Source: Algoriphagus resistens
GTDB taxonomy: Bacteria; Bacteroidota; Bacteroidia; Cytophagales; Cyclobacteriaceae
Direction: 5' to 3'
Length of the DNA: 64,000 bases
NCBI RefSeq assembly: GCF_001442615.1
Contig: NZ_LMXN01000006.1
Span: 248,001 to 312,000, forward strand
A program made the position numbers and the translations under genes. Below the pieces are notes generated by a model. The model was not told the DNA's origin and made no database searches. It saw only the letters and a list, made by a program, of their open reading frames with translations. Positions 54,055 to 64,000 of the stretch are shown here, one piece after another (the stretch's first letter is position 1; every line of letters begins with the position of its first letter).

Positions 54055-54357
54055 ATGAAACTATCTGAAAAAAACATAAACCGAATAAAGAAACTTTGTA
54101 AGAAATACAAGGTTAAGACATTTTCGGCATTTGGTTCTGTGGCTCGTGACGATTTTAACGATGATTCTGATATTGACTTTGTTGTAGGTTTTGAAGAAAC
54201 CGACCCTTTCAAATACTCAGATTTATATTTTCAACTTAAAGAGAATTTAGAAAATTTACTTCATCGACATATTGACTTAATCGAAGAACGTGGAATAAAA
54301 AATCAAATTTTTAGAAAAGAGCTGGATAGCATTAAAATTCTGATTTATGGACAATAG
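54055..54357 (+). CDS. MNT-type nucleotidyltransferase antitoxin
   Basis: A 100-residue minimal nucleotidyltransferase. FSAFGSVARDDFNDDSDIDFVV gives the GS-x10-DxD motif, and HRHIDLIEERGI the third acidic residue, so it looks catalytically able. In MNT/HEPN pairs this protein silences the HepT RNase by adding AMP to the tyrosine of its RX4-6HxY motif. The 3' end overlaps the start of a HepT-like gene at 54347, but that gene is broken. The antitoxin frame itself is intact. Confidence 0.88.
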   Translation: MKLSEKNINRIKKLCKKYKVKTFSAFGSVARDDFNDDSDIDFVVGFEETDPFKYSDLYFQLKENLENLLHRHIDLIEERGIKNQIFRKELDSIKILIYGQ

Positions 54358-54687
54358 AATGAGTGCTTAGTTGGAAGATATTATTAAATCTATTGACGAA
54401 ATATTTGAGTTTCTTCCCGAAAAAAGAGATTTCTTTGAATACCTAAAAGACTTAAAAACCAAAAAGCAGTTGAAAGAAATATTGAAATAATCGAAGAAGC
54501 AATTAACCGAATAGTTAAACATAAAGACTCCGATTTTAAGATAAACAACGCACAAAAGATAATTGGGACTCGAAATAGAATTGCTCACGAATAGGATAGC
54601 ATTTCTGACGAGGTTATTTGGACGATAATAATACGAGAGCTACCTGAATTGAAAAAAGAAATCCAAAGCATAGTGGAAAAGCACTAG
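54347..54687 (+). pseudogene. Broken HepT-like (HEPN) toxin
   Basis: Starts ATG 54347 inside the MNT gene end, as in live pairs. A stop comes after seven codons (TAG, likely an old Trp), and a one-base frameshift lies near 54466 (LKDLKTK, then AVERNIEIIEEAINRI). A second stop (TAG at 54592) falls right after RNRIAHE, where HepT proteins carry the tyrosine of RX4-6HxY. The ending IIIRELPELKKEIQSIVEKH is otherwise good. The RNase cannot be made, and its target tyrosine is lost. Confidence 0.87.
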
Positions 54688-54711
54688 CCACAGTCAAGTA
54701 ACCTGAAGTGA

Positions 54712-54775
54712 TGAAATCGAGCATGTCGAAAACGACACACACCGGGATGATTATAATGCATGCGAGATTCCATAT
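54712..54775 (+). repeat. 64-nt structured repeat, copy 1
   Basis: It matches copy 2 (61287-61350, opposite strand) at 57 of 64 positions. A 14-nt box (54712-54725) runs into a small hairpin, TGTCG AAAA CGACA (54724-54737), followed by a 32-nt identical core (54744-54775). The 5' box and the core can pair: AATC and GCATG with CATGC and GATT, around tandem G.A mismatches. It begins 25 nt after the HepT remnant stop, and a lipoprotein gene starts 27 nt later. Confidence 0.85.
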
Positions 54776-54801
54776 AGCATTTGAAAAACTAGTATAAAAA
54801 G

Positions 54802-55485
54802 ATGAAAATTATCCTATTTCTACTTATCAGTACCCTATTTGGGGTAATAGCCTGCGAGAAGCAAGCTGATAAAACCACACAAACCTGGTGGATCAATTCT
54901 GCTAAAATGGACTGTACCGGGGTTGCTCCCATGTCCTGTCTGCAAATACAAAAAGGATCTGAGATCGATCCCAAAGGCTGGGAATTTTTCTACAGTGCTA
55001 TCCAGGGTTTTGACTATGAGCCGGGAAATATCTACCAGATCACTGTAAAGGTCATAGAAAAAGAGATTCCCCTCCCTGCAGATGCTTCTTCTCAAAATTA
55101 TGAACTGGTAGAAATCCTCAGTAAAAAACCGGATCCTGCCTTGCGGTTGACTAATAGCTGGAAACTCTTAAAAGTGGGTGATATCGAAAATCCAACCGGG
55201 TTTAAAAACAAAGAAGCATTGATATTTGAGTTTGATGCCTCAAGAAGAACCTATGTCGGAAATATGGGATGTAATTCTGTCCGCGGCGAAATCAAGGAAA
55301 ACAACGGTGAAAAATTACTGCTTGGATCCGGAGCAGCTACGATGATGGCCTGCCCTGATATGGCTGCAGAGCAGGCAATCTCTAAAGCTCTGCTGGATAC
55401 ACGAGGATATAAACTGGAAAACAACCAACTTTACTTTCTGAATGAAGGCGGGGAAACCTTGATGGTTTTCCAGGCTGTAGATTAA
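54802..55485 (+). CDS. DUF4377 and META domain lipoprotein
   Basis: A 227-residue lipoprotein (lipobox GVIAC). Residues about 27-105 are DUF4377: WWINSAKMDCTGVAPMSCLQIQKG, then WEFFYSAIQGFDYEPGNIYQI. Residues about 120-227 are a META/HslJ domain: SWKLLKVGDIENPTG, VGNMGCNSVRGEI and ATMMACPDMAAEQAI. HslJ-type proteins are linked to heat and novobiocin resistance, but the mechanism is unclear. The FAH gene follows after 8 nt, and the series of closely spaced genes runs on to transketolase. Confidence 0.88.
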   Translation: MKIILFLLISTLFGVIACEKQADKTTQTWWINSAKMDCTGVAPMSCLQIQKGSEIDPKGWEFFYSAIQGFDYEPGNIYQITVKVIEKEIPLPADASSQNYELVEILSKKPDPALRLTNSWKLLKVGDIENPTGFKNKEALIFEFDASRRTYVGNMGCNSVRGEIKENNGEKLLLGSGAATMMACPDMAAEQAISKALLDTRGYKLENNQLYFLNEGGETLMVFQAVD

Positions 55486-55493
55486 GGTTACCT

Positions 55494-56105
55494 ATGAAAA
55501 TTATTTGCATTGGCCGTAATTACGCGGCACATATTGAGGAACTGAAAAATGAAACCCCGGGAAATCCGGTAGTATTTCTTAAACCCGATACGGCGCTGTT
55601 AAAAGACGGTGCTCCATTTTTCTATCCTGATTTTTCCCAGAACATCCATCATGAAGCAGAGTTGGTGCTGAAAATTTCCAAGCAGGGAAAATACATACAG
55701 AAACAATTTGCACACCGGTATTTTGATGAGATAGGAATCGGGATAGATTTTACTGCCCGTGACCTTCAGGATCAATGCAAGGCCAAGGGATTACCTTGGG
55801 AAATAGCCAAGGGATTCAATGGTGCTGCTCCCATTGGAAAGTTCAAATCAGTAGAAGATTTTGAAGATCAGAAAAACATAGATTTTCACCTGACTATCAA
55901 TGGAGAAACCCGCCAAAAAGGCAACACGTCACTGATGCTTTTTGATTTTGGGGATATCATAGCCTATGTTTCCCAATTTTTCATGCTAAAAACAGGAGAC
56001 CTCATCTACACCGGCACACCTGCCGGCGTGGGGCCTGTACAGATCGGGGACAAATTGGAAGGATTTATAGGTACGGAAAAGTTATTGGATTTTGAAGTTA
56101 ACTAA
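55494..56105 (+). CDS. Fumarylacetoacetate hydrolase family protein
   Basis: A 203-residue member of the FAH fold. KIICIGRNYAAHIEEL, then HHEAELVLKISKQGK (metal-binding Glu), DFTARDLQDQCKAKGLPWEIAKGFNGAAPIG and IYTGTPAGVGPVQIGD are the hallmarks. Relatives act as acylpyruvate hydrolases or oxaloacetate decarboxylases. The short form here resembles YcgM/FAHD1. Its 3' end overlaps the next gene by 14 nt. Confidence 0.92.
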   Translation: MKIICIGRNYAAHIEELKNETPGNPVVFLKPDTALLKDGAPFFYPDFSQNIHHEAELVLKISKQGKYIQKQFAHRYFDEIGIGIDFTARDLQDQCKAKGLPWEIAKGFNGAAPIGKFKSVEDFEDQKNIDFHLTINGETRQKGNTSLMLFDFGDIIAYVSQFFMLKTGDLIYTGTPAGVGPVQIGDKLEGFIGTEKLLDFEVN

Positions 56106-57966
56106 GTTAAGCTACGCATTCCTTTTTCTTGGATTTATTAATATGTTAGAGTCAACTGCCCAGGTAGTAGATAAAGGCTATTTCAAGAACCCTATCAATC
56201 CAGGAACCAGAAATTATCTATCGGGAAATTTTGCTGAATTGAGACCCAATCACTTCCATACGGGTTTGGATTTTAAAACCGGGGGTCAGGAAGGGGTCCC
56301 TGTTTTGGCAGCGGCAGACGGCTGGGTACACCGGATCAAAATCTCCTCATTTGGCTATGGAAATGTTATCTACCTAAAACATCCAAATGGTAAAATCACG
56401 CTTTACGGTCACTTGCGCAATTTCAATAAGGAGCTCAGTGACTACATGCGCAAGAAAATGTATGCTGCTAAAGCCAATGAACTGGAAGTCTATCTTGAGC
56501 AGGGAGAGATCCCCGTAAAACAGGGCCAACGGATCGCCGATAGCGGAAATACCGGGGGTTCGGGAGGACCACACCTGCATTTTGAGATCCGGGATAGCTT
56601 GGACCGGGCGATGGATCCACTCTTATTTGGATTCTCCGAAATCATCGATAATACACCTCCGGTTCCCCAAAGCATAGCCATTGTTCCCTTGGATATAGAT
56701 TCCCGCGTGAATGGGAAATTTGCCCGACTAGAAGTCACTCCAGTAGCAAGCGGATCAACTTATCGCCTTCCAAATGATATCAAAATCACTGGAAAAGTAG
56801 GTATAGAAATCCGAAGCTTCGATCAACTCGACGGAGCTAGCAATAGAAATGGTTTTCCTACTTTTGAACTGTTGGATGAAAAAGGGACGCTTTTCAACCT
56901 CACCGTGGATAAGGTTAATTTCAACTATTCCCGACAATTTCTCCAGCATACCTATCAAAATCGCTATACCAGGCTTTATTACCAGAAGAACTTGAAGTTT
57001 GAATTTATCAGTCCTAAATCAGACACAACTGGCCACTTGCAACTAGAACCTGGCATAAAAAAAGCGTTCAGGCTAAAGTTACGGGACGCCTATGGAAATG
57101 AGCGACAGGTTAGTTTTACGCTACAAGGCCAGGATTTGGAAACCGTGGTAAATGATGGGACTGCACCGGCCAAAGCGTCTTTGGAATACATCAATAACAT
57201 TTTGAAAATCAAGGCTCCCGTTACACCAAAAGGAGGCTTGGCAAAGTTTTATCTGGGAGCAAATCAATTTGAAATGCTCCCCGCCTATCAGGATACCGAT
57301 AGCCGTACGTATCTCTGGGACTTGGATTTTGGTATTCCTGAGGAAATTGACATCTGCTCGGAGGTGGTGATCCCAGAGATCAATGCACTTATTCCTGCGG
57401 GAAAAGAGATCTCCTATTCCGAGAGAAACCTGCAAATGAATTTCAACCACGAAACTGTGCTGGATGATTTATTCCTGAGAGTTTCGCAGTCTGGATCTGC
57501 GGTAAGCCCACATTTGAATGTGAACAGTAACCGGGAATTTCTTTGGAATGCAATGAATATACGTTGGAATTTGCCTGACTATTCCGGAAACAAGGCACGG
57601 TCCCATGCTTATTATACCTCGGGTGGGGCTAAATCTTTTTTGGGAGGAACATGGGAGGGGAACACCCTGGATTTCGGATCCAGATACCTGGGGGAAATCT
57701 CCATTTTGCAAGACGACATCAAGCCCACCATTAAGGTTATCCGCGTCAATTCATCGGAAATCCGTTTTGTAATCCGGGATGAGCTCTCCGGCATCGACAG
57801 CTATGAAGCCTTTGTAGATGGCAAATGGGTACTGATGAGGTATGAATACAAACAAGCCGTGATTTGGTCCGAAAAACTAACAAATGAACCGTTCAAAGGA
57901 GAAGTTTTGCTAAAAGTTACCGATAAAGCTGGCAATACTGCTGAATGGAAAGGAACGATTGGTTAA
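56092..57966 (+). CDS. M23 family metallopeptidase, exported
   Basis: A 624-residue exported protein. The start is a TTG at 56092, overlapping the FAH gene; the signal MKLTKLSYAFLFLGF requires it, since the next ATG lies after the signal core. The lysostaphin-like domain holds HFHTGLDFKTGGQEG (Zn His and Asp) and SGGPHLHFEIRDS (HLH). After it come about 430 residues of beta-rich unknown sequence ending RVNSSEIRFVIRDELSGIDSYEAFVDGKW-like text, typical of Bacteroidota M23 proteins. It probably cuts peptidoglycan cross-links in the periplasm. Confidence 0.9.
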   Translation: MKLTKLSYAFLFLGFINMLESTAQVVDKGYFKNPINPGTRNYLSGNFAELRPNHFHTGLDFKTGGQEGVPVLAAADGWVHRIKISSFGYGNVIYLKHPNGKITLYGHLRNFNKELSDYMRKKMYAAKANELEVYLEQGEIPVKQGQRIADSGNTGGSGGPHLHFEIRDSLDRAMDPLLFGFSEIIDNTPPVPQSIAIVPLDIDSRVNGKFARLEVTPVASGSTYRLPNDIKITGKVGIEIRSFDQLDGASNRNGFPTFELLDEKGTLFNLTVDKVNFNYSRQFLQHTYQNRYTRLYYQKNLKFEFISPKSDTTGHLQLEPGIKKAFRLKLRDAYGNERQVSFTLQGQDLETVVNDGTAPAKASLEYINNILKIKAPVTPKGGLAKFYLGANQFEMLPAYQDTDSRTYLWDLDFGIPEEIDICSEVVIPEINALIPAGKEISYSERNLQMNFNHETVLDDLFLRVSQSGSAVSPHLNVNSNREFLWNAMNIRWNLPDYSGNKARSHAYYTSGGAKSFLGGTWEGNTLDFGSRYLGEISILQDDIKPTIKVIRVNSSEIRFVIRDELSGIDSYEAFVDGKWVLMRYEYKQAVIWSEKLTNEPFKGEVLLKVTDKAGNTAEWKGTIG

Positions 57967-57991
57967 ATTAGGCGCCCTAAACAACTAGCAT

Positions 57992-58441
57992 ATGCAATTA
58001 AAAGAAGGCCAAATGGCCCCGGATTTTGAAGCGAATATTGAAACAGGAGAAACGATCAAGCTTTCCGACTATCGAGGGAAAAAGGTGGTCCTCTATTTTT
58101 ACCCTAAAGATGCCACACCGGGATGTACTGCCCAGGCATGCAATCTGAGAGATAACTACGAAGAGTTGCAGAAAGCAGGCTATGTGGTTTTTGGGATCAG
58201 TTCAGATGCGGAGAAATCTCATTTGAAGTTTAAAGAAAAGCAAGCCTTGCCTTTTTCTTTGATTGCTGATACTGACCTGAAAGTCCATGAAGCCTACGGC
58301 ACCTGGCAAGAAAAAAATACGTTTGGCAAAACCTACATGGGAACCGTCCGAACCACTTTTGTAATAGATGAAGAGGGAATAATCTCCGAAATCATAGAAA
58401 AAGTAAACACTAAAGATCATACAGCTCAAATACTCAAATAA
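57992..58441 (+). CDS. bcp: Thioredoxin-dependent thiol peroxidase (Bcp family)
   Basis: A 149-residue atypical peroxiredoxin. YFYPKDATPGCTAQACNLRD has the peroxidatic Cys in PGCT and the resolving Cys five residues on, as in Bcp/PrxQ. It reduces hydrogen peroxide and lipid hydroperoxides at the cost of thioredoxin. It sits 25 nt after the M23 gene and 11 nt before the transketolase genes. Confidence 0.95.
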   Translation: MQLKEGQMAPDFEANIETGETIKLSDYRGKKVVLYFYPKDATPGCTAQACNLRDNYEELQKAGYVVFGISSDAEKSHLKFKEKQALPFSLIADTDLKVHEAYGTWQEKNTFGKTYMGTVRTTFVIDEEGIISEIIEKVNTKDHTAQILK

Positions 58442-58452
58442 ACCTATTAAAC

Positions 58453-59304
58453 ATGGAAAAAAAATCAATAGAACAACTCGAGCAAATCGCCTCGCAGGTA
58501 CGTAGAGATTGCCTCCGTATGGTGCATGCTGTCCAGTCCGGGCACCCGGGGGCATCACTGGGGTGTACTGAGTTTTTTACAGCTCTGTACTTTGACCAGC
58601 TCAATCACGATCCTAATTTCAATATGGAAGGAAAAGGCGAAGATCTCTTCTTCCTTTCCAACGGCCATATTTCACCGGTATGGTATTCGGTGCTTTCCAG
58701 ATCAGGCTATTTTTCCCCTGAGGAAATGAATACGTTCAGAAAGCTGAATTCCAGGCTTCAAGGTCACCCTGCGACCGAGGAAGGGCTTCCAGGAATCAGA
58801 ATCGCTTCAGGTTCATTGGGACAGGGATTATCTGTGGCAATCGGTGCGGCACAGGCAAAGAAAATCGATGGCGACAAAAGCACCGTGTATGTGCTGATGG
58901 GCGATGGTGAGCAGGAAGAAGGCCAAATCTGGGAAGCTGCAATGTATGCAGCACACTGGAAAGTGGACAATCTGATCGCTACAATAGATCTTAACAGACA
59001 GCAGATCGACGGTGCAACTAAGGACATCATGAATTTGATCGATCTGAGAGCAAAATATGAATCTTTCGGCTGGGAAGTAAATGATATCTTTCAGGGCAAT
59101 GACATGAAGTCTGTGGTAGAAGGCCTTGAAAAAGCAAAAGGGCTGAGTCGTCAGGGAAAACCTGTATTGAACCTACTTCATACAGAAATGGGCTTTGGCG
59201 TTGACTTCATGGTGGGTACGCACAAGTGGCATGGCATAGCGCCAAGTGACGAGCAACTCGCAGAAGCTTTAGGACAACTTCCGGAAACTCTTGGCGATTA
59301 TTGA
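58453..59304 (+). CDS. Transketolase, N-terminal subunit
   Basis: A 283-residue TPP-binding half of transketolase. VQSGHPGASLGCTEFFTALY, IASGSLGQGLSVAIGAA and YVLMGDGEQEEGQIWEAAM, then ATIDLNRQQIDG, carry the TPP-diphosphate and metal motif. It must pair with the C-terminal subunit made by the next gene (36 nt on). Split transketolases are common in Bacteroidota, archaea and some Firmicutes. It serves the non-oxidative pentose phosphate pathway. Confidence 0.95.
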   Translation: MEKKSIEQLEQIASQVRRDCLRMVHAVQSGHPGASLGCTEFFTALYFDQLNHDPNFNMEGKGEDLFFLSNGHISPVWYSVLSRSGYFSPEEMNTFRKLNSRLQGHPATEEGLPGIRIASGSLGQGLSVAIGAAQAKKIDGDKSTVYVLMGDGEQEEGQIWEAAMYAAHWKVDNLIATIDLNRQQIDGATKDIMNLIDLRAKYESFGWEVNDIFQGNDMKSVVEGLEKAKGLSRQGKPVLNLLHTEMGFGVDFMVGTHKWHGIAPSDEQLAEALGQLPETLGDY

Positions 59305-59340
59305 TCAGGGGATTTTTAGACTATTCAACGAAAAGAAAAC

Positions 59341-60309
59341 ATGGAAAAGACATTGGATTTAAAATTCAACTATACAGAAAAAAAAGATACACGCTCAGGC
59401 TTCGGTGACGGCTTCCTTGAGGCTGGACGCAGAAATCCAAATGTGGTGGGACTTTGTGCGGATTTGATCGGTTCATTGAAAATGGGTGCGTTCCAGAAGG
59501 AATTTCCTGAAAGATTCTTTCAGACCGGTATCGCTGAGGCAAATATGATGGGCATTGCCGCGGGTATGACCATCAACGGTAAGATCCCTTTCACAGGTAC
59601 TTTCGCCAACTTCTCAACAGGCCGTGTGTACGATCAGATACGTCAGTCAATTGCCTATTCTGGCAAAAACGTGAAAATCTGTGCCTCCCACGCTGGTTTG
59701 ACCCTGGGAGAAGACGGTGCTACCCACCAGATTCTGGAAGATGTGGGCATGATGAAAATGCTTCCGCACATGACCGTGATCAATCCTTGTGATTATAACC
59801 AGACTAAAGCAGCTACCATCGCGATCGCTGATTACGAAGGACCTGTTTACCTGAGGTTTGGACGTCCATCCTGGCCTATTTTCACTGATCCTGCCCAGAA
59901 GTTTGAAATCGGGAAAGCCTGGAAAATGATCGAGGGCACCGATGTGACTATCTTCGCTACCGGGCACTTGGTGTGGGAAGCTGTAGTGGCAGAAGCAATG
60001 CTTAGATCAGAAGGCATTTCTGCCGAGGTGATCAATATCCATACAATTAAGCCGCTGGACCAGGAAGCAATCCTTGATTCTGTTGCTAAAACAGGCTGCG
60101 CAGTGACTGCCGAAGAACATCAGTACAATGGCGGTCTTGGTGATAGTGTTGCTCAGACACTTGCCCGACATAATCCTGCTCCAGTGGAGTATGTAGGTGT
60201 AAATGACAGCTTTGGCGAGTCGGGGACACCTACTCAGTTACTGGATAAATACGGACTTGATGCCGCCAATATCGTAGCTGCTGCCAAGAAAGTATTGGCT
60301 AGAAAATAA
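59341..60309 (+). CDS. Transketolase, C-terminal subunit
   Basis: A 322-residue pyrimidine-binding and C-terminal half. DTRSGFGDGFLEAGR, FFQTGIAEANMMGIAAGM (the Glu that activates TPP), SHAGLTLGEDGATHQILEDVGMM and VYLRFGRP are the usual family text. The tail GYGESGTP-like DSFGESGTPTQLLDKYGLD is present. It ends before a strong terminator and is likely cotranscribed with the N-terminal subunit gene. Confidence 0.95.
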   Translation: MEKTLDLKFNYTEKKDTRSGFGDGFLEAGRRNPNVVGLCADLIGSLKMGAFQKEFPERFFQTGIAEANMMGIAAGMTINGKIPFTGTFANFSTGRVYDQIRQSIAYSGKNVKICASHAGLTLGEDGATHQILEDVGMMKMLPHMTVINPCDYNQTKAATIAIADYEGPVYLRFGRPSWPIFTDPAQKFEIGKAWKMIEGTDVTIFATGHLVWEAVVAEAMLRSEGISAEVINIHTIKPLDQEAILDSVAKTGCAVTAEEHQYNGGLGDSVAQTLARHNPAPVEYVGVNDSFGESGTPTQLLDKYGLDAANIVAAAKKVLARK

Positions 60310-60346
60310 TAAGATCCCCTTCTACTGAAGGTCCATTAAACCACTT

Positions 60347-60379
60347 AATCCACAGCCATCTAATGGCTGTGGATTTTAC
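60347..60379 (+). terminator. Rho-independent terminator after transketolase
   Basis: The 13-nt arms aatccacagccat (60347-60359) and atggctgtggatt (60363-60375) enclose a 3-nt loop and run into TT. Confidence 0.87.
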
Positions 60380-60523
60380 TTTCATCACCCTGATGTAAAC
60401 ACATCAAAAATCTCCTCATTTTTATTTTGGCAAGACAATTGAAATACATTTCTTTGAGTAAGAATCAACAAAGATTTCTCATCCAAAATTGCCGTTTATT
60501 CTCACTCACCCTCGCCTATTTCA

Positions 60524-61063
60524 ATGATTAAGCTTACTGACGATATTAGTATCCAGAAACTCACTTTCTCTGATCAACCGGAGTTGCTTGAGTTGATGCG
60601 TGAAATTTACATTCCCTCTTACCAGCATATTTGGTCTGATACAGGCGAATGGTACTTGGAGCAGATGTATAACCCTGAAGCTTTTCGCCAAGACCTCGAA
60701 GACCCTAAAAGCCATTATTATTTTGTGCTTTATGAGGGGTGGAAAATAGGGATTTTGAAGTATAGCTATCCAGAATCCCCTGCGTTGATTGACTTTCCCA
60801 ATTCCCTAAAGCTACACCGCATTTATATCAGCAAGGAATATCAAGGTAAAGGGATCGCAGCCCGCATCATGAAAATGGTAGAGTCCGTAGCACGAGAGCG
60901 GAATCTCAACTATATGTGGCTCGAAGTAATGGACACCCAGCTGCAAGCGCAGAAATTCTATAGAAAAATGGGGTTTGAGTGGTTATTTACCTATCATTTG
61001 GATTACAAAAAGCTTCTCCCTAAATACCGTGGAATTCAGATTTTGAGAAAGTCCTTAACTTGA
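60524..61063 (+). CDS. GNAT family N-acetyltransferase
   Basis: A 179-residue acetyltransferase. The acetyl-CoA loop is in HRIYISKEYQGKGIAARIMKMV (Q/RxxGxG/A), followed by NLNYMWLEVMDTQLQAQKFYRKMGFEWL. The N-terminal segment (ELLELMREIYIPSYQHIWSD) fits the PaiA/YitI-like group of small-molecule acetyltransferases. The substrate is unknown. It forms its own transcription unit. Confidence 0.88.
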   Translation: MIKLTDDISIQKLTFSDQPELLELMREIYIPSYQHIWSDTGEWYLEQMYNPEAFRQDLEDPKSHYYFVLYEGWKIGILKYSYPESPALIDFPNSLKLHRIYISKEYQGKGIAARIMKMVESVARERNLNYMWLEVMDTQLQAQKFYRKMGFEWLFTYHLDYKKLLPKYRGIQILRKSLT

Positions 61064-61133
61064 TCTTCATGTAAGATTGGTCAAATGACTGCCATTACAG
61101 CTCTCCAAATACCATTGGAATAAGGTATTTTAG

Positions 61134-61194
61134 AAAATGGCCTGTATGCTAAACCCACCCTTTATCCATTGATAGCAGGCATGCCATTTTCTTC
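61134..61194 (+). terminator. Imperfect hairpin after the GNAT gene (possible terminator)
   Basis: aaaatggcctgtatgct (61134-61150) and agcaggcatgccatttt (61174-61190) pair with three mismatches over 17 nt and end in TTTTCTTC. The loop is long (23 nt). A further inverted repeat, tggtcatc and gatgacca, lies at 61197-61221. Neither has a proven role. Confidence 0.4.
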
Positions 61195-61286
61195 ATTGGT
61201 CATCTGTTTTTCTGATGACCATACCAAAGGCAAACACAACCAAACTAAACCTTTTTCATATGATTATAATTTGTCTTTTAAGGGCC

Positions 61287-61350
61287 ATATGGAATCTCGC
61301 ATGCATTATAATCATCCCAGTGTGTGACTCTTGAGTCATGCTCGATTTCA
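61287..61350 (-). repeat. 64-nt structured repeat, copy 2
   Basis: On the minus strand the 14-nt box (61350-61337) leads into the hairpin TGACTC AA GAGTCA (61338-61325) and the 32-nt core (61318-61287). It starts 4 nt after the stop codon of the CHAT gene and in the same direction. Compared with copy 1, six of seven differences fall in the hairpin at symmetric positions. Confidence 0.85.
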
Positions 61351-61354
61351 CCTA

Positions 61355-64000
61355 TTAAAGAGCTTCTTCCAGTTTTTTCTTAATTTCATTAAAATCCGCT
61401 TTCATTTTAGCTTCAGAATTAATTTTCTCTAAAACTGAACTGATTATCTCAAAATGCTCCAGTTCAGCTATCTTCTGGCCTTTATTACCGGCCAGCTTCC
61501 ATAGCTTAAGGTACTCATTAATGATATCTTCTTTTTTAGCCTCGGAAATCCCTATAAGGAATTGCGCTAACATAATATTTGCAAAATGGGCCATTTTCCA
61601 AAAATCATCAGAGGTTGACTCACTTCCTTCTAATTCATTATAGATTCTTTGAATTGCCTTCCTAGCCTCCAGATCAATATTCTTCAGTCCACTTTTGTCC
61701 TGCAGTAAAAGATGTAGCCTGGTAAGGGTCAGCCAATTTGTAAGCGGATAGGCATCATTATAGTCAGAGAACTGACTTGCCTGCTTATACGCATGGATAG
61801 CTTCTGATAGCGCTTTCATCAAATCTTCAACCGGGGCATCCCGGAGAATATGCATTTTCCGTTTGTTTGCACTGCCAATCAAACTCCATCTTTCGGCACT
61901 TTCGCCAAAATGCTTTGCTAATCCTTCAAGATCTACGATGACTTTATCAATCTTTTTGACAGCTTCTTTCAGGCCGATTTTCTTCAACCCATATTGCTGC
62001 AAAGAAAGCTTGGCAAGAGTATTACAATACCTTTCAAAACTTTTAATAGTAAATGCTGACTTTTTGGATTTCAGTAATTGTTCGTAGCAAGTACATGATT
62101 TCTCATATTCCTGCAAGCCAGCATATATATTGGCTGATAGCTCGTAGATATTGTCCGTGAGCATAGCTCTACTTTTCATTTTCTCAAAAACAGAATCAAG
62201 CCTGTCCAGTACTCCATCATGGTTATATTCATTGGAGCCCATAGACTCAAGCGTATTCTGCAACTCAATTTCTACTTCTTCGCAAACCAGCAACTCATCA
62301 TCATTCCTGCTCCAAGCGCCTTCTTCGGACAGCTTATAAAAGGGATCTCCGTAACATTGAAAAGCTCCCCAAGTATTGGTTCTACGGCCATATTCCTTAT
62401 AAATGACTTTCCTGGCGCGCTTGACAGCCTCTCCAAATCCCAAGCCTTCAAACATATTCTCATAGAACTGTTTGGAAAACTCCAAAGCAGCCGCATCATC
62501 CACAGCCCATCCTGCCACCACTACTGCTCTTGCGCCATTGTTGATAAGCTGGGTCCCAATGTTTGCAGCAAATTTATTTCTATACTGACTTCTCTCTTCG
62601 GATCCCCTATCCACCAGTCCCAGGTAGCAGCAGTTCACAAAAACCAATTCCGCCGAGGAGCTCATCCCTGCAATCTGCGCTGGGGTTAAGAAAGTATCGT
62701 TTCCGATTACCATTCCCGTAGCGCGATTGGGGCCATATTTGAAGACTCCGTGCCCAGCGAGATGTATGATTTTATGATTTCTGGAAAAAAGCTTGAGAAT
62801 AATATCGGACGCAGTGCTGCTGATTAAGCGCTGAATCTGATAGTTGTTTTTCTTAAGAATATCAACGACGGCCTCAGCTTCCCGTTTGGCACCTGGAAGC
62901 TGGGGAAAAAACTTATCAAGAATAGGATCTCCAACCACTAAGGCTGATTTTTCCGTTACTCTCGCAATTTTTTTACGGGATTGCATAGTGGTCAACTGAC
63001 GGATCATGCCTGTATGCACACAAAGCGGAACTGCATCCAAATCTTCCTGAATCATTTCCCAAGGATATTCTGCTGATGCCAGATCTAATATCCAAGACAC
63101 ATTATTCAGTCGCTTCACTTCCTCTTTAAACTCATAGGGTATCAATAGCTCAAACATAGTTTTGGCTATCTCAGGAGAATATTGGTTTTCCAATGTCATT
63201 CTCTTAAGCAAGAGTGCTAAAGTTTTATCATTTGCCGGCATAAATTCCACCTTCTCACTCGCACCGTTTGAAGCAATAGACATCCGAATTGCTTCCTCCA
63301 CTTCTTCTATATCTTTGATTTTTAATTCATGGCTTACACTTATTCTGGTCCACCAGTCCTGAGTATTCTCATAAGGGATTCTCCAGCGTCTTCCCAGTTT
63401 ATAGTTTAGCCCCTTCTCCTTGAAAGCTACATTAAACTCCTTGCTATCATCAACCTCCAATCGCTTGATAGTTTTCAAAATGGATAAGGCTTTATCATTG
63501 AATATTTCAATAATCTCTATCTCTTCTATGCCTTTTATCTTTCCTTTATAAGCTGACTGGATATTTTTATTTGCTTTCTGTACGCCAAGAATAATCGCAC
63601 GAATAGAACTCTCTGTGGAAAGTCCGCCATAAGCATTTGCTATAGCAATCACTGAAATACCTGAAGTTGGAACGCCCGTCCCATCTAGTTGAACCTTTGT
63701 ATTTCCTTTTTTAATGGTCAAATATCTGGCTACGCCTTTTTCTACGGAATTCATCAGAGCAAATCCTGATAGTTCCCCAGGAACACCCAATCCTATAATC
63801 AATCCTCCCTTAAAAGATGATTTTGTGAAATTTTCATTTAAAACAATTTGATTGCTCCCTATAGGACCTGGGTACAAACCTAAGCCGTGTAATCTCGCCA
63901 GTTCTCCATCCAGTTGACGGTCAATCGCAAGCTCAGTGGTAAGGATTGCATCAAATTCAAAATGTCCCGCAAGCACAGGATATTTTGCATATTTCAGATC
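61355..64000 (-). CDS. CHAT-domain (caspase-like) protein, 5' end outside window
   Basis: The frame is open to the right edge, so the protein has more than 881 residues; numbering here is from the GTG at 63976. An N-terminal domain (LARLHGLGLYPGPIGSNQIV; KGGLIIGLGVPGELSG; ANAYGGLSTESSIRAIILG) resembles the module often fused to CHAT in large bacterial proteins. The CHAT protease domain holds His409 in IIHLAGHGVFKYG and Cys450 in LVFVNCCYLGLVD, the likely dyad. It ends in WGAFQCYGDPFYKLSEEG. The last 320 residues are helical and TPR-like (ELSANIYAGLQEYEKSCTCYEQLL). CHAT proteases act in immune and cell-death systems such as Craspase and gasdermin activation; the role here is inference. The 64-nt repeat lies right behind it. 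Confidence 0.85.
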   Translation of the reverse strand, partial: DLKYAKYPVLAGHFEFDAILTTELAIDRQLDGELARLHGLGLYPGPIGSNQIVLNENFTKSSFKGGLIIGLGVPGELSGFALMNSVEKGVARYLTIKKGNTKVQLDGTGVPTSGISVIAIANAYGGLSTESSIRAIILGVQKANKNIQSAYKGKIKGIEEIEIIEIFNDKALSILKTIKRLEVDDSKEFNVAFKEKGLNYKLGRRWRIPYENTQDWWTRISVSHELKIKDIEEVEEAIRMSIASNGASEKVEFMPANDKTLALLLKRMTLENQYSPEIAKTMFELLIPYEFKEEVKRLNNVSWILDLASAEYPWEMIQEDLDAVPLCVHTGMIRQLTTMQSRKKIARVTEKSALVVGDPILDKFFPQLPGAKREAEAVVDILKKNNYQIQRLISSTASDIILKLFSRNHKIIHLAGHGVFKYGPNRATGMVIGNDTFLTPAQIAGMSSSAELVFVNCCYLGLVDRGSEERSQYRNKFAANIGTQLINNGARAVVVAGWAVDDAAALEFSKQFYENMFEGLGFGEAVKRARKVIYKEYGRRTNTWGAFQCYGDPFYKLSEEGAWSRNDDELLVCEEVEIELQNTLESMGSNEYNHDGVLDRLDSVFEKMKSRAMLTDNIYELSANIYAGLQEYEKSCTCYEQLLKSKKSAFTIKSFERYCNTLAKLSLQQYGLKKIGLKEAVKKIDKVIVDLEGLAKHFGESAERWSLIGSANKRKMHILRDAPVEDLMKALSEAIHAYKQASQFSDYNDAYPLTNWLTLTRLHLLLQDKSGLKNIDLEARKAIQRIYNELEGSESTSDDFWKMAHFANIMLAQFLIGISEAKKEDIINEYLKLWKLAGNKGQKIAELEHFEIISSVLEKINSEAKMKADFNEIKKKLEEAL

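Follow-up and report, generated by a model that had tools for sequence, protein, structure and literature searches.

The window, by which we mean the whole stretch of 64,000 nucleotides of Algoriphagus resistens DNA that was analyzed, contains two copies of a repeated element. Upstream of copy 1, a gene for an MNT nucleotidyltransferase (54055-54357, + strand), confirmed by a domain match, is followed by a HepT-like frame that is broken by stops and runs to about 54690 on the same strand; the name HepT is the label given to this frame in an earlier, sequence-only reading of the window. Copy 1 occupies positions 54711-54801 (+ strand; 91 nt from its 5' ATGAAA up to the next ATG), and the ATGAAA at its right end (54802-54807, +) provides the start codon of a DUF4377/META gene (54802-55485). 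Copy 2 lies on the opposite strand at 61260-61351 (- strand; 92 nt), where its left ATG reads GTG, and follows a gene for a CHAT protease with TPR-S (61355-63976, -), whose assignment to CHAT (PF12770) was confirmed. The right ATGAAA of copy 2 (61254-61259, -) opens only four codons and no gene.

The MNT/HepT-like remnant (54055-54690) and copy 1 sit between a GDSL hydrolase gene and the DUF4377/META gene. In a relative, G009 (locus L055), the GDSL hydrolase and META genes lie side by side without the HepT remnant or copy 1, and the GDSL and DUF4377/META genes of locus L154 are apparently adjacent too. Given this adjacency, the remnant and copy 1 were probably both added there. The sequence-only reading had placed the repeat just after the stop of a conflict-type gene. 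This is true of both window copies, but not of the family, and the link to conflict genes looks incidental, given the G009 arrangement and the many kinds of proteins that we found downstream of the copies examined, among which no common gene class was seen.

The repeat had been described as a unit of 64 nt (54712-54775, +, and 61287-61350, -), and both copies were found at these positions and on these strands. They differ at 7 of the 64 positions, and six of these differences fall within the hairpin TGTCGAAAACGACA / TGACTCAAGAGTCA at three symmetric pairs, which change from T-A to A-T, from G-C to T-A and from A/A to C-G. The helices of 4 and 5 bp around tandem G.A mismatches are likewise present (AATC-GA-GCATG with CATGC-GA-GATT). 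Thus, the 64-nt repeat is real, but it is not the full unit: similarity among aligned copies and their flanks extends past 64 nt to a fixed end, CAN followed by ATGAAA, and the full element, counted between successive ATGAAA motifs, is about 92 nt long. From 5' to 3', the element consists of ATGAAATCGAGC, a variable hairpin, CACACNGGGATGATTAT, GCGA-GATTCCATNTG, an A-rich tail and the terminal CAN and ATGAAA. In copy 1 (all + strand), the 5' arm ATGAAATCGAGCATG with the left ATGAAA at its start spans 54711-54725; the variable hairpin TGTCG-AAAA-CGACA, which shows compensatory changes among copies, spans 54724-54737; the conserved core CACACACCGGGATGATTAT, mostly unpaired in the consensus fold, spans 54736-54754; and the 3' arm CATGCGAGATTCCAT spans 54759-54773. 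Within this 3' arm, TTCCAT (54768-54773) can pair with ATGAAA at every position but one, an A.C mismatch.

The ATG-to-ATG length among 208 copies is 92 nt in 65, 91 nt in 28, 89 nt in 18 and 101 nt in 15. Where copies are arrayed in tandem, neighbors share one ATGAAA, which is the right end of the first and the left end of the next. The inner parts vary strongly within a constant frame of ATGAAA, stem arm, CACACNGGGATGATTAT, stem arm, TTCCATNTG, A-rich tail and CANATGAAA. One variant with the same ends carries a long AT-rich hairpin (ATGAAATCGACACGATTAAAATCATCATT... AATGATTATTTTAATCGTC); it is found beside type A copies in loci L015, L016, L018, L029 and L030, and also in Cyclobacterium loci. 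A set of 13 3' boxes that lack a recognized 5' box within 150 nt revealed no autonomous version in the 150 nt upstream; mostly a variant or decayed 5' part or the end of a contig lies there, and there was no sign of a long element in any of them. For the exact 3' and 5' boxes, the places covered individually are the first 100 of each.

The element is abundant in the genome from which the window derives (G000, 6.13 Mb). A BLAST search with copy 1 and its flanks gave at least 56 places after the scoring of 40 of 201 candidates. We counted 161 exact 3' boxes (ATTCCATNTGRCC) and 129 exact 5' boxes (TGAAATCGAGCATG), and neither reversed-pattern control occurs at all; thus, the repeat far exceeds what would be expected by chance. 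On contigs that are not oriented, 58 of the 3' boxes lie on the forward and 103 on the reverse strand. In a first set of 38 genomes, 11 match, the own genome included; these 11 all come from the 24 members of the same genus, and none of the 14 belonging to other families gave a match. A pattern scan of named genomes returned at least 119 stretches, of which 116 of the 119 listed are labeled Algoriphagus, Cyclobacterium, Lunatibacter, Lunatimonas, Mongoliibacter, Pleomorphovibrio, Aquiflexum, Belliella or a "Cyclobacteriaceae bacterium"; the other three come from metagenome-assembled genomes labeled Bacteroidales, Flavobacteriales and Sulfuricurvum, for which mislabeling is possible. A covariance model, R1, matches 33 of 78 genomes of the family (each of another genus, the own one included, with up to 52 candidates scored per genome), and copy 2 is among its matches as G000:C40:309254-309354. 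R1 also matches 11 of 247 genomes of the phylum, four of them outside the family (G314, G318, G129 and G258); its E-values are rough, so the weakest single matches are uncertain, and those near 1e-5 in the scan of the family may be due to chance. Of the stretches fetched, a strict reading of the skeleton finds the element in 6 of 9 for G258, 1 of 3 for G314 and the single one for G129, and does not find it in the one for G318.

We then related the copies to the genes around them. Among 201 copies from the own genome and the named loci, 58 run into a further element and 4 run off the end of the locus. In the remaining 139, the usable copies, the ORF that starts at the terminal ATG is at least 100 aa long in 108 cases, 50-99 aa in 3 and shorter than 50 codons in 28. 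For intergenic ATGAAA controls without the element, the ORF reaches at least 100 aa in 137 of 351 cases (Fisher's test, p about 7e-15), and the enrichment is an upper estimate since the copies were chosen with an intact 3' ATGAAA, are related to one another, and selection keeps the hexamer at gene starts. Most copies thus terminate precisely at the start codon of the gene that follows. When solitary copies are taken by a looser choice, the left end reads ATG in 80 of the 84 located at gene starts and in 28 of the 35 located away from them; the latter figure indicates that ATGAAA is the target itself and has not merely been kept by selection. This preference is not absolute, as a copy inside a RAYT gene (L341) has CAGGAAA at its left end.

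We compared 122 downstream proteins of at least 60 aa with 194 loci for orthologs. The clearest case is reciprocal: one gene is filled in L185 and empty in L176, and the neighboring gene is filled in L176 and empty in L185. In both empty alleles, the matching upstream sequence continues straight into ATGAAA. Likewise, the gene filled in L154 has an ortholog without the element in 11 other loci, including the window gene at 55494, and L109 is filled where L013 is empty. Close empty sites contain a single ATGAAA, whereas filled sites contain ATGAAA at both ends. Some of the empty L154 orthologs start with ATGAAG, as do several FAH orthologs and the META gene of G009, all without the element; the window ortholog of L095 (44872), also without it, starts with ATGAGC, so not every empty allele shows the target in less close relatives. 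In some cases the element is common to orthologs (L098, L144 and L125; L119 and L162; L009 and L182; L185 and L178). Orthologous sites with and without the element thus differ by a clean insertion at ATGAAA, and this comparison of loci shows both the mobility of the element and its target. A mobile DNA hairpin had been among the possibilities raised in the sequence-only reading, and these sites support it.

Copies at different loci that are at least 0.97 identical make up 25 of 61 in G000, 6 of 11 in G061 and 5 of 11 in G077, the G061 and G077 loci having been picked for equal scores. By comparison, G014 has 99 model matches, and in a sample of 24 of its copies no two were more than 0.86 identical. 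The presence of near-identical copies at separate loci points to recent activity in G000, G061 and G077; the comparison across genomes is itself indicative, as the samples are small and were chosen in different ways.

A structured element had also been proposed, and here the pairs of the hairpin do covary. We scanned 92 distinct ungapped copies without a prior structure, considering pairs of columns at least three apart from the left flank to the 3' arm together with the last nine bases, the tail being left out. The strongest covarying pair among these columns joins the N of CATNTG to the N of the element's own CAN before ATGAAA, which are Watson-Crick matched (A-T, C-G or G-C) in 171 of 208 copies; the next three strongest pairs all lie in the hairpin. 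In the proposed structure, 91.5% of cells pair and none of 500 shuffles reaches the covariation score, although sequences that share ancestry may surpass shuffled ones in such a test. Pairs with a two-sided change are at least as numerous in 44 of 500 shuffles, and for the 3'-stem structure in 340 of 500. Energy-based folding is not decisive: the RNAalifold covariation term contributes -0.43 of -9.27 kcal/mol, and folding z-scores are -2.51 (RNA) and -1.53 (DNA) for the consensus-like copy L016, -0.35 and -0.96 (RNA) for the window copies and -0.54 (DNA) for copy 1. Helix 1 hardly varies within the family, and distant members replace it by compensating arms (AATGCCC/GGGCATT, AATGGCC/GGCCATT and AACATCC/GGATGTT) while keeping TTCCATNTG and ATGAAA. 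In arrays, the N of 52 copies fits their own 3' end only in 28, the upstream neighbor only in 2, both in 15 and neither in 7, so it follows the end of its own element rather than that of the adjoining copy. For insertions that lack a copy upstream, the nucleotide preceding the left ATG matches the arm in 44 of 156 cases; this is near the chance level, which is what a base belonging to the host sequence should show.

Taken together, the comparisons present an element with ATGAAA at both ends and an A-rich 3' tail of its own that most often ends on a start codon. We consider it probable, from comparative sequence evidence, that this is a small non-autonomous, site-specific mobile element of the Cyclobacteriaceae and some other Bacteroidota that inserts at ATGAAA. 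Where it ends exactly on the start codon, the inserted element becomes the 5' leader of the gene and leaves the protein unchanged.

As a mechanism, we tentatively propose a circular intermediate guided by pairing, which we regard as plausible without favoring it strongly. An enzyme acting in trans would excise the element in a circular, probably single-stranded form, the junction of which would read CANATGAAATCG. In this form, CANATGAAATC from the joined ends would pair with the GATTCCATNTG arm, and the resulting stem would present ATGAAA for cutting. Exchange within a target ATGAAA would then insert the element. Insertion at a start codon would restore the start and be nearly harmless, so that copies would survive mainly at start codons. 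We infer that the TTCCATNTG arm pairs with ATGAAA during movement.

A broader form of this proposal is more speculative, and we think it doubtful: the elements may be phylum-wide, self-guided mobile leaders, in which the element's own arm TTCCATNTG would pair with ATGAAA in both donor and target, home to start codons and rewrite many 5' leaders, with the conserved A.C mismatch sparing the arm's own complement and with a recombinase of a kind not yet described. Homing to a start codon and restoring it would explain how well over 100 insertions could pile up cheaply in one genome, and many unrelated genes would have been given the same structured leader. Fold, hexamer target and enzyme would be joined in a testable link. 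The element could also mislead the annotation of start codons and small ORFs in Cyclobacteriaceae.

An alternative is a REP/REPIN-type element mobilized by a RAYT-like or IS200-like Y1 (HUH) tyrosine transposase. REP/REPIN sequences (PMC3733652, PMC6006769 and PMC3116915) resemble the element in being high-copy, intergenic, non-autonomous hairpins with a possible guide sequence; the element differs in its length of about 92 nt, its head-to-tail tandem copies and its position at start codons. Its conserved columns contain no GTAG/CGTC foot, the stem beginning with ATGAAATC, and RAYT genes in the 87 loci screened are not flanked by it beyond background density. Miniature elements derived from IS200/IS605 are also similar in outline, with a subterminal hairpin, guide pairing with a short fixed target and no inverted terminal repeats (PMC6006769). 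Insertion next to a short fixed target and the lack of inverted terminal repeats were indeed observed here; the differences are that the same ATGAAA stands at both ends, that one arm is complementary to both, and that no cognate Y1 common to the active genomes was found among the Y1 proteins compared.

The genomes themselves offer some support for movement by Y1, given that G000, G061 and G077 have both Y1 genes and near-identical copies, while the fossil-like G014, a complete genome, has no Y1 match and no close copy pairs. However, Y1 genes are carried by 28 of the 30 genomes of the genus, whether or not these contain the element, and G010, G018 and G022 carry Y1 without element matches. The single intact Y1 of G000 is no more than 33% identical to the Y1 proteins of the other active genomes compared, so no common Y1 subfamily is apparent among them. 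Nor is the element enriched near these genes: 87 Y1/RAYT loci (259 kb) contain 7 model matches in 5 loci, or about one per 37 kb, compared with a background in the own genome of one exact 3' box per 38 kb, and none of the 5 matching loci has copies on both sides of an intact Y1 gene. Membership in the REP/RAYT class is thus not supported, and we regard mobilization by a Y1 enzyme of these kinds as unlikely. A possible lead is that Y1 subclasses without typical partner structures have been described in Bacteroidetes (PMC6006769).

Several observations concern individual Y1 loci. In L341 (G077), copies lie near a decayed Y1, one at 1302-1398 within the 5' part of a RAYT-like gene and a second at 870-966. 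In G009 (L210:1933-2033), an element has inserted, on the opposite strand, at an ATGAAA located right where a Y1 transposase gene ends. Across loci L049-L053 of the own genome, a single IS200-like Y1 gene is intact and several other Y1 sequences are decayed remnants.

As for other enzymes, clustering of 1243 ORFs from the loci revealed no gene family that stood out near the copies, and the 22 largest clusters look, by eye, like common paralogous families. RVT_1 is present in G061 and G077 and gave no match in G000, G064, G194 and G258, all of which have elements; a retroelement moved by a reverse transcriptase was rejected on the ground that G000 has near-identical copies and no RVT_1 match. 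Likewise, the element does not appear to be a MITE of DDE transposons, as its ends, by reading, are direct (ATGAAA...ATGAAA) with no terminal inverted repeats; a term search of a MITE review (PMC10969869) gave no match.

The element might instead be mainly a cis-regulatory RNA leader, the spread of which would be secondary, in which pairing of TTCCATNTG with CANAUGAAA would hide the start codon and an alternative pairing of GATTCCAT with the 5' AUGAAAUC would free it. The covarying start-codon stem, the mutually exclusive pairings on the sense strand and the position directly before start codons are all consistent with such a leader. Indeed, the CATNTG-CANATG covariation fits equally a joined circular intermediate or a 3' hairpin of the inserted form, and since it fits the latter, a regulatory RNA fits as well. 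However, no common class of genes was seen downstream, presence and absence of the element differ between close orthologs, the CATNTG/CANATG stem is decayed in copy 1 (CATATA / AAGATG), and 28 of the 139 usable copies lead into fewer than 50 codons. We therefore consider a primarily regulatory role quite improbable. No known Rfam RNA family was recognized either; the window gave no match, and nine loci gave two weak ones, both below the gathering score.

Position at start codons also recalls the MIRUs of mycobacteria, which, in the work of Supply and co-workers, are reportedly sited at stop/start codon overlaps and contain small ORFs. Like them, the element is a short dispersed unit that is often in tandem and lies in gene direction; it differs in sequence and lineage, in lacking a clear coding signal and in its conserved fold, one arm of which is complementary to the site of insertion. 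No description of MIRU insertion sites was found in passages from PMC2277376. A MIRU-like unit would carry a small ORF whose stop overlaps the next start and would so keep translational coupling in operons, and in 80 of 189 copies the frame opened by the left ATG does close exactly on a TGA that overlaps the right ATG. In 106 of the 189, however, the frame stops earlier, as it does in several distant members, and 77 copies show no clear coding signal. With the hairpin left out, third-position variability in these copies is barely raised, at 0.478 versus 0.423 and 0.439 for the other positions; with the hairpin included, third positions are not the most variable; and the synonymous share, 0.28, is below the 0.34 obtained for a frame closed in all 77. 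The small ORF is thus not conserved as coding, and a MIRU-like unit is very unlikely.

TAACTGA heptamer repeats are likewise concentrated just before start codons, also in five Bacteroidetes, but, in passages of PMC4679880, are simple heptamers with no such fold or insertion footprint. We found nothing like this element described in open-licence papers. A phage- or plasmid-borne element was rejected, as one pattern found no match in viral contigs and blastn with one copy found none in plasmids and phages.

The 3'-UTR or toxin-linked element of the sequence-only reading has a negligible probability: both window copies follow a stop codon, and the upstream gene lies on the same strand in 102 of the 150 outermost copies (102 of the 142 with a neighbor, the gene being absent from the locus in 8), but it is divergent in 40 of the 142, the distance to the upstream stop ranges from overlap to 761 nt, and the defining, fixed edge is the downstream ATGAAA with the reading frames that it opens. 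In one stretch of the own genome (L246:2430-4850), five elements are interspersed among consecutive genes that all point the same way, and several of these elements end at or beside the start of the next gene.
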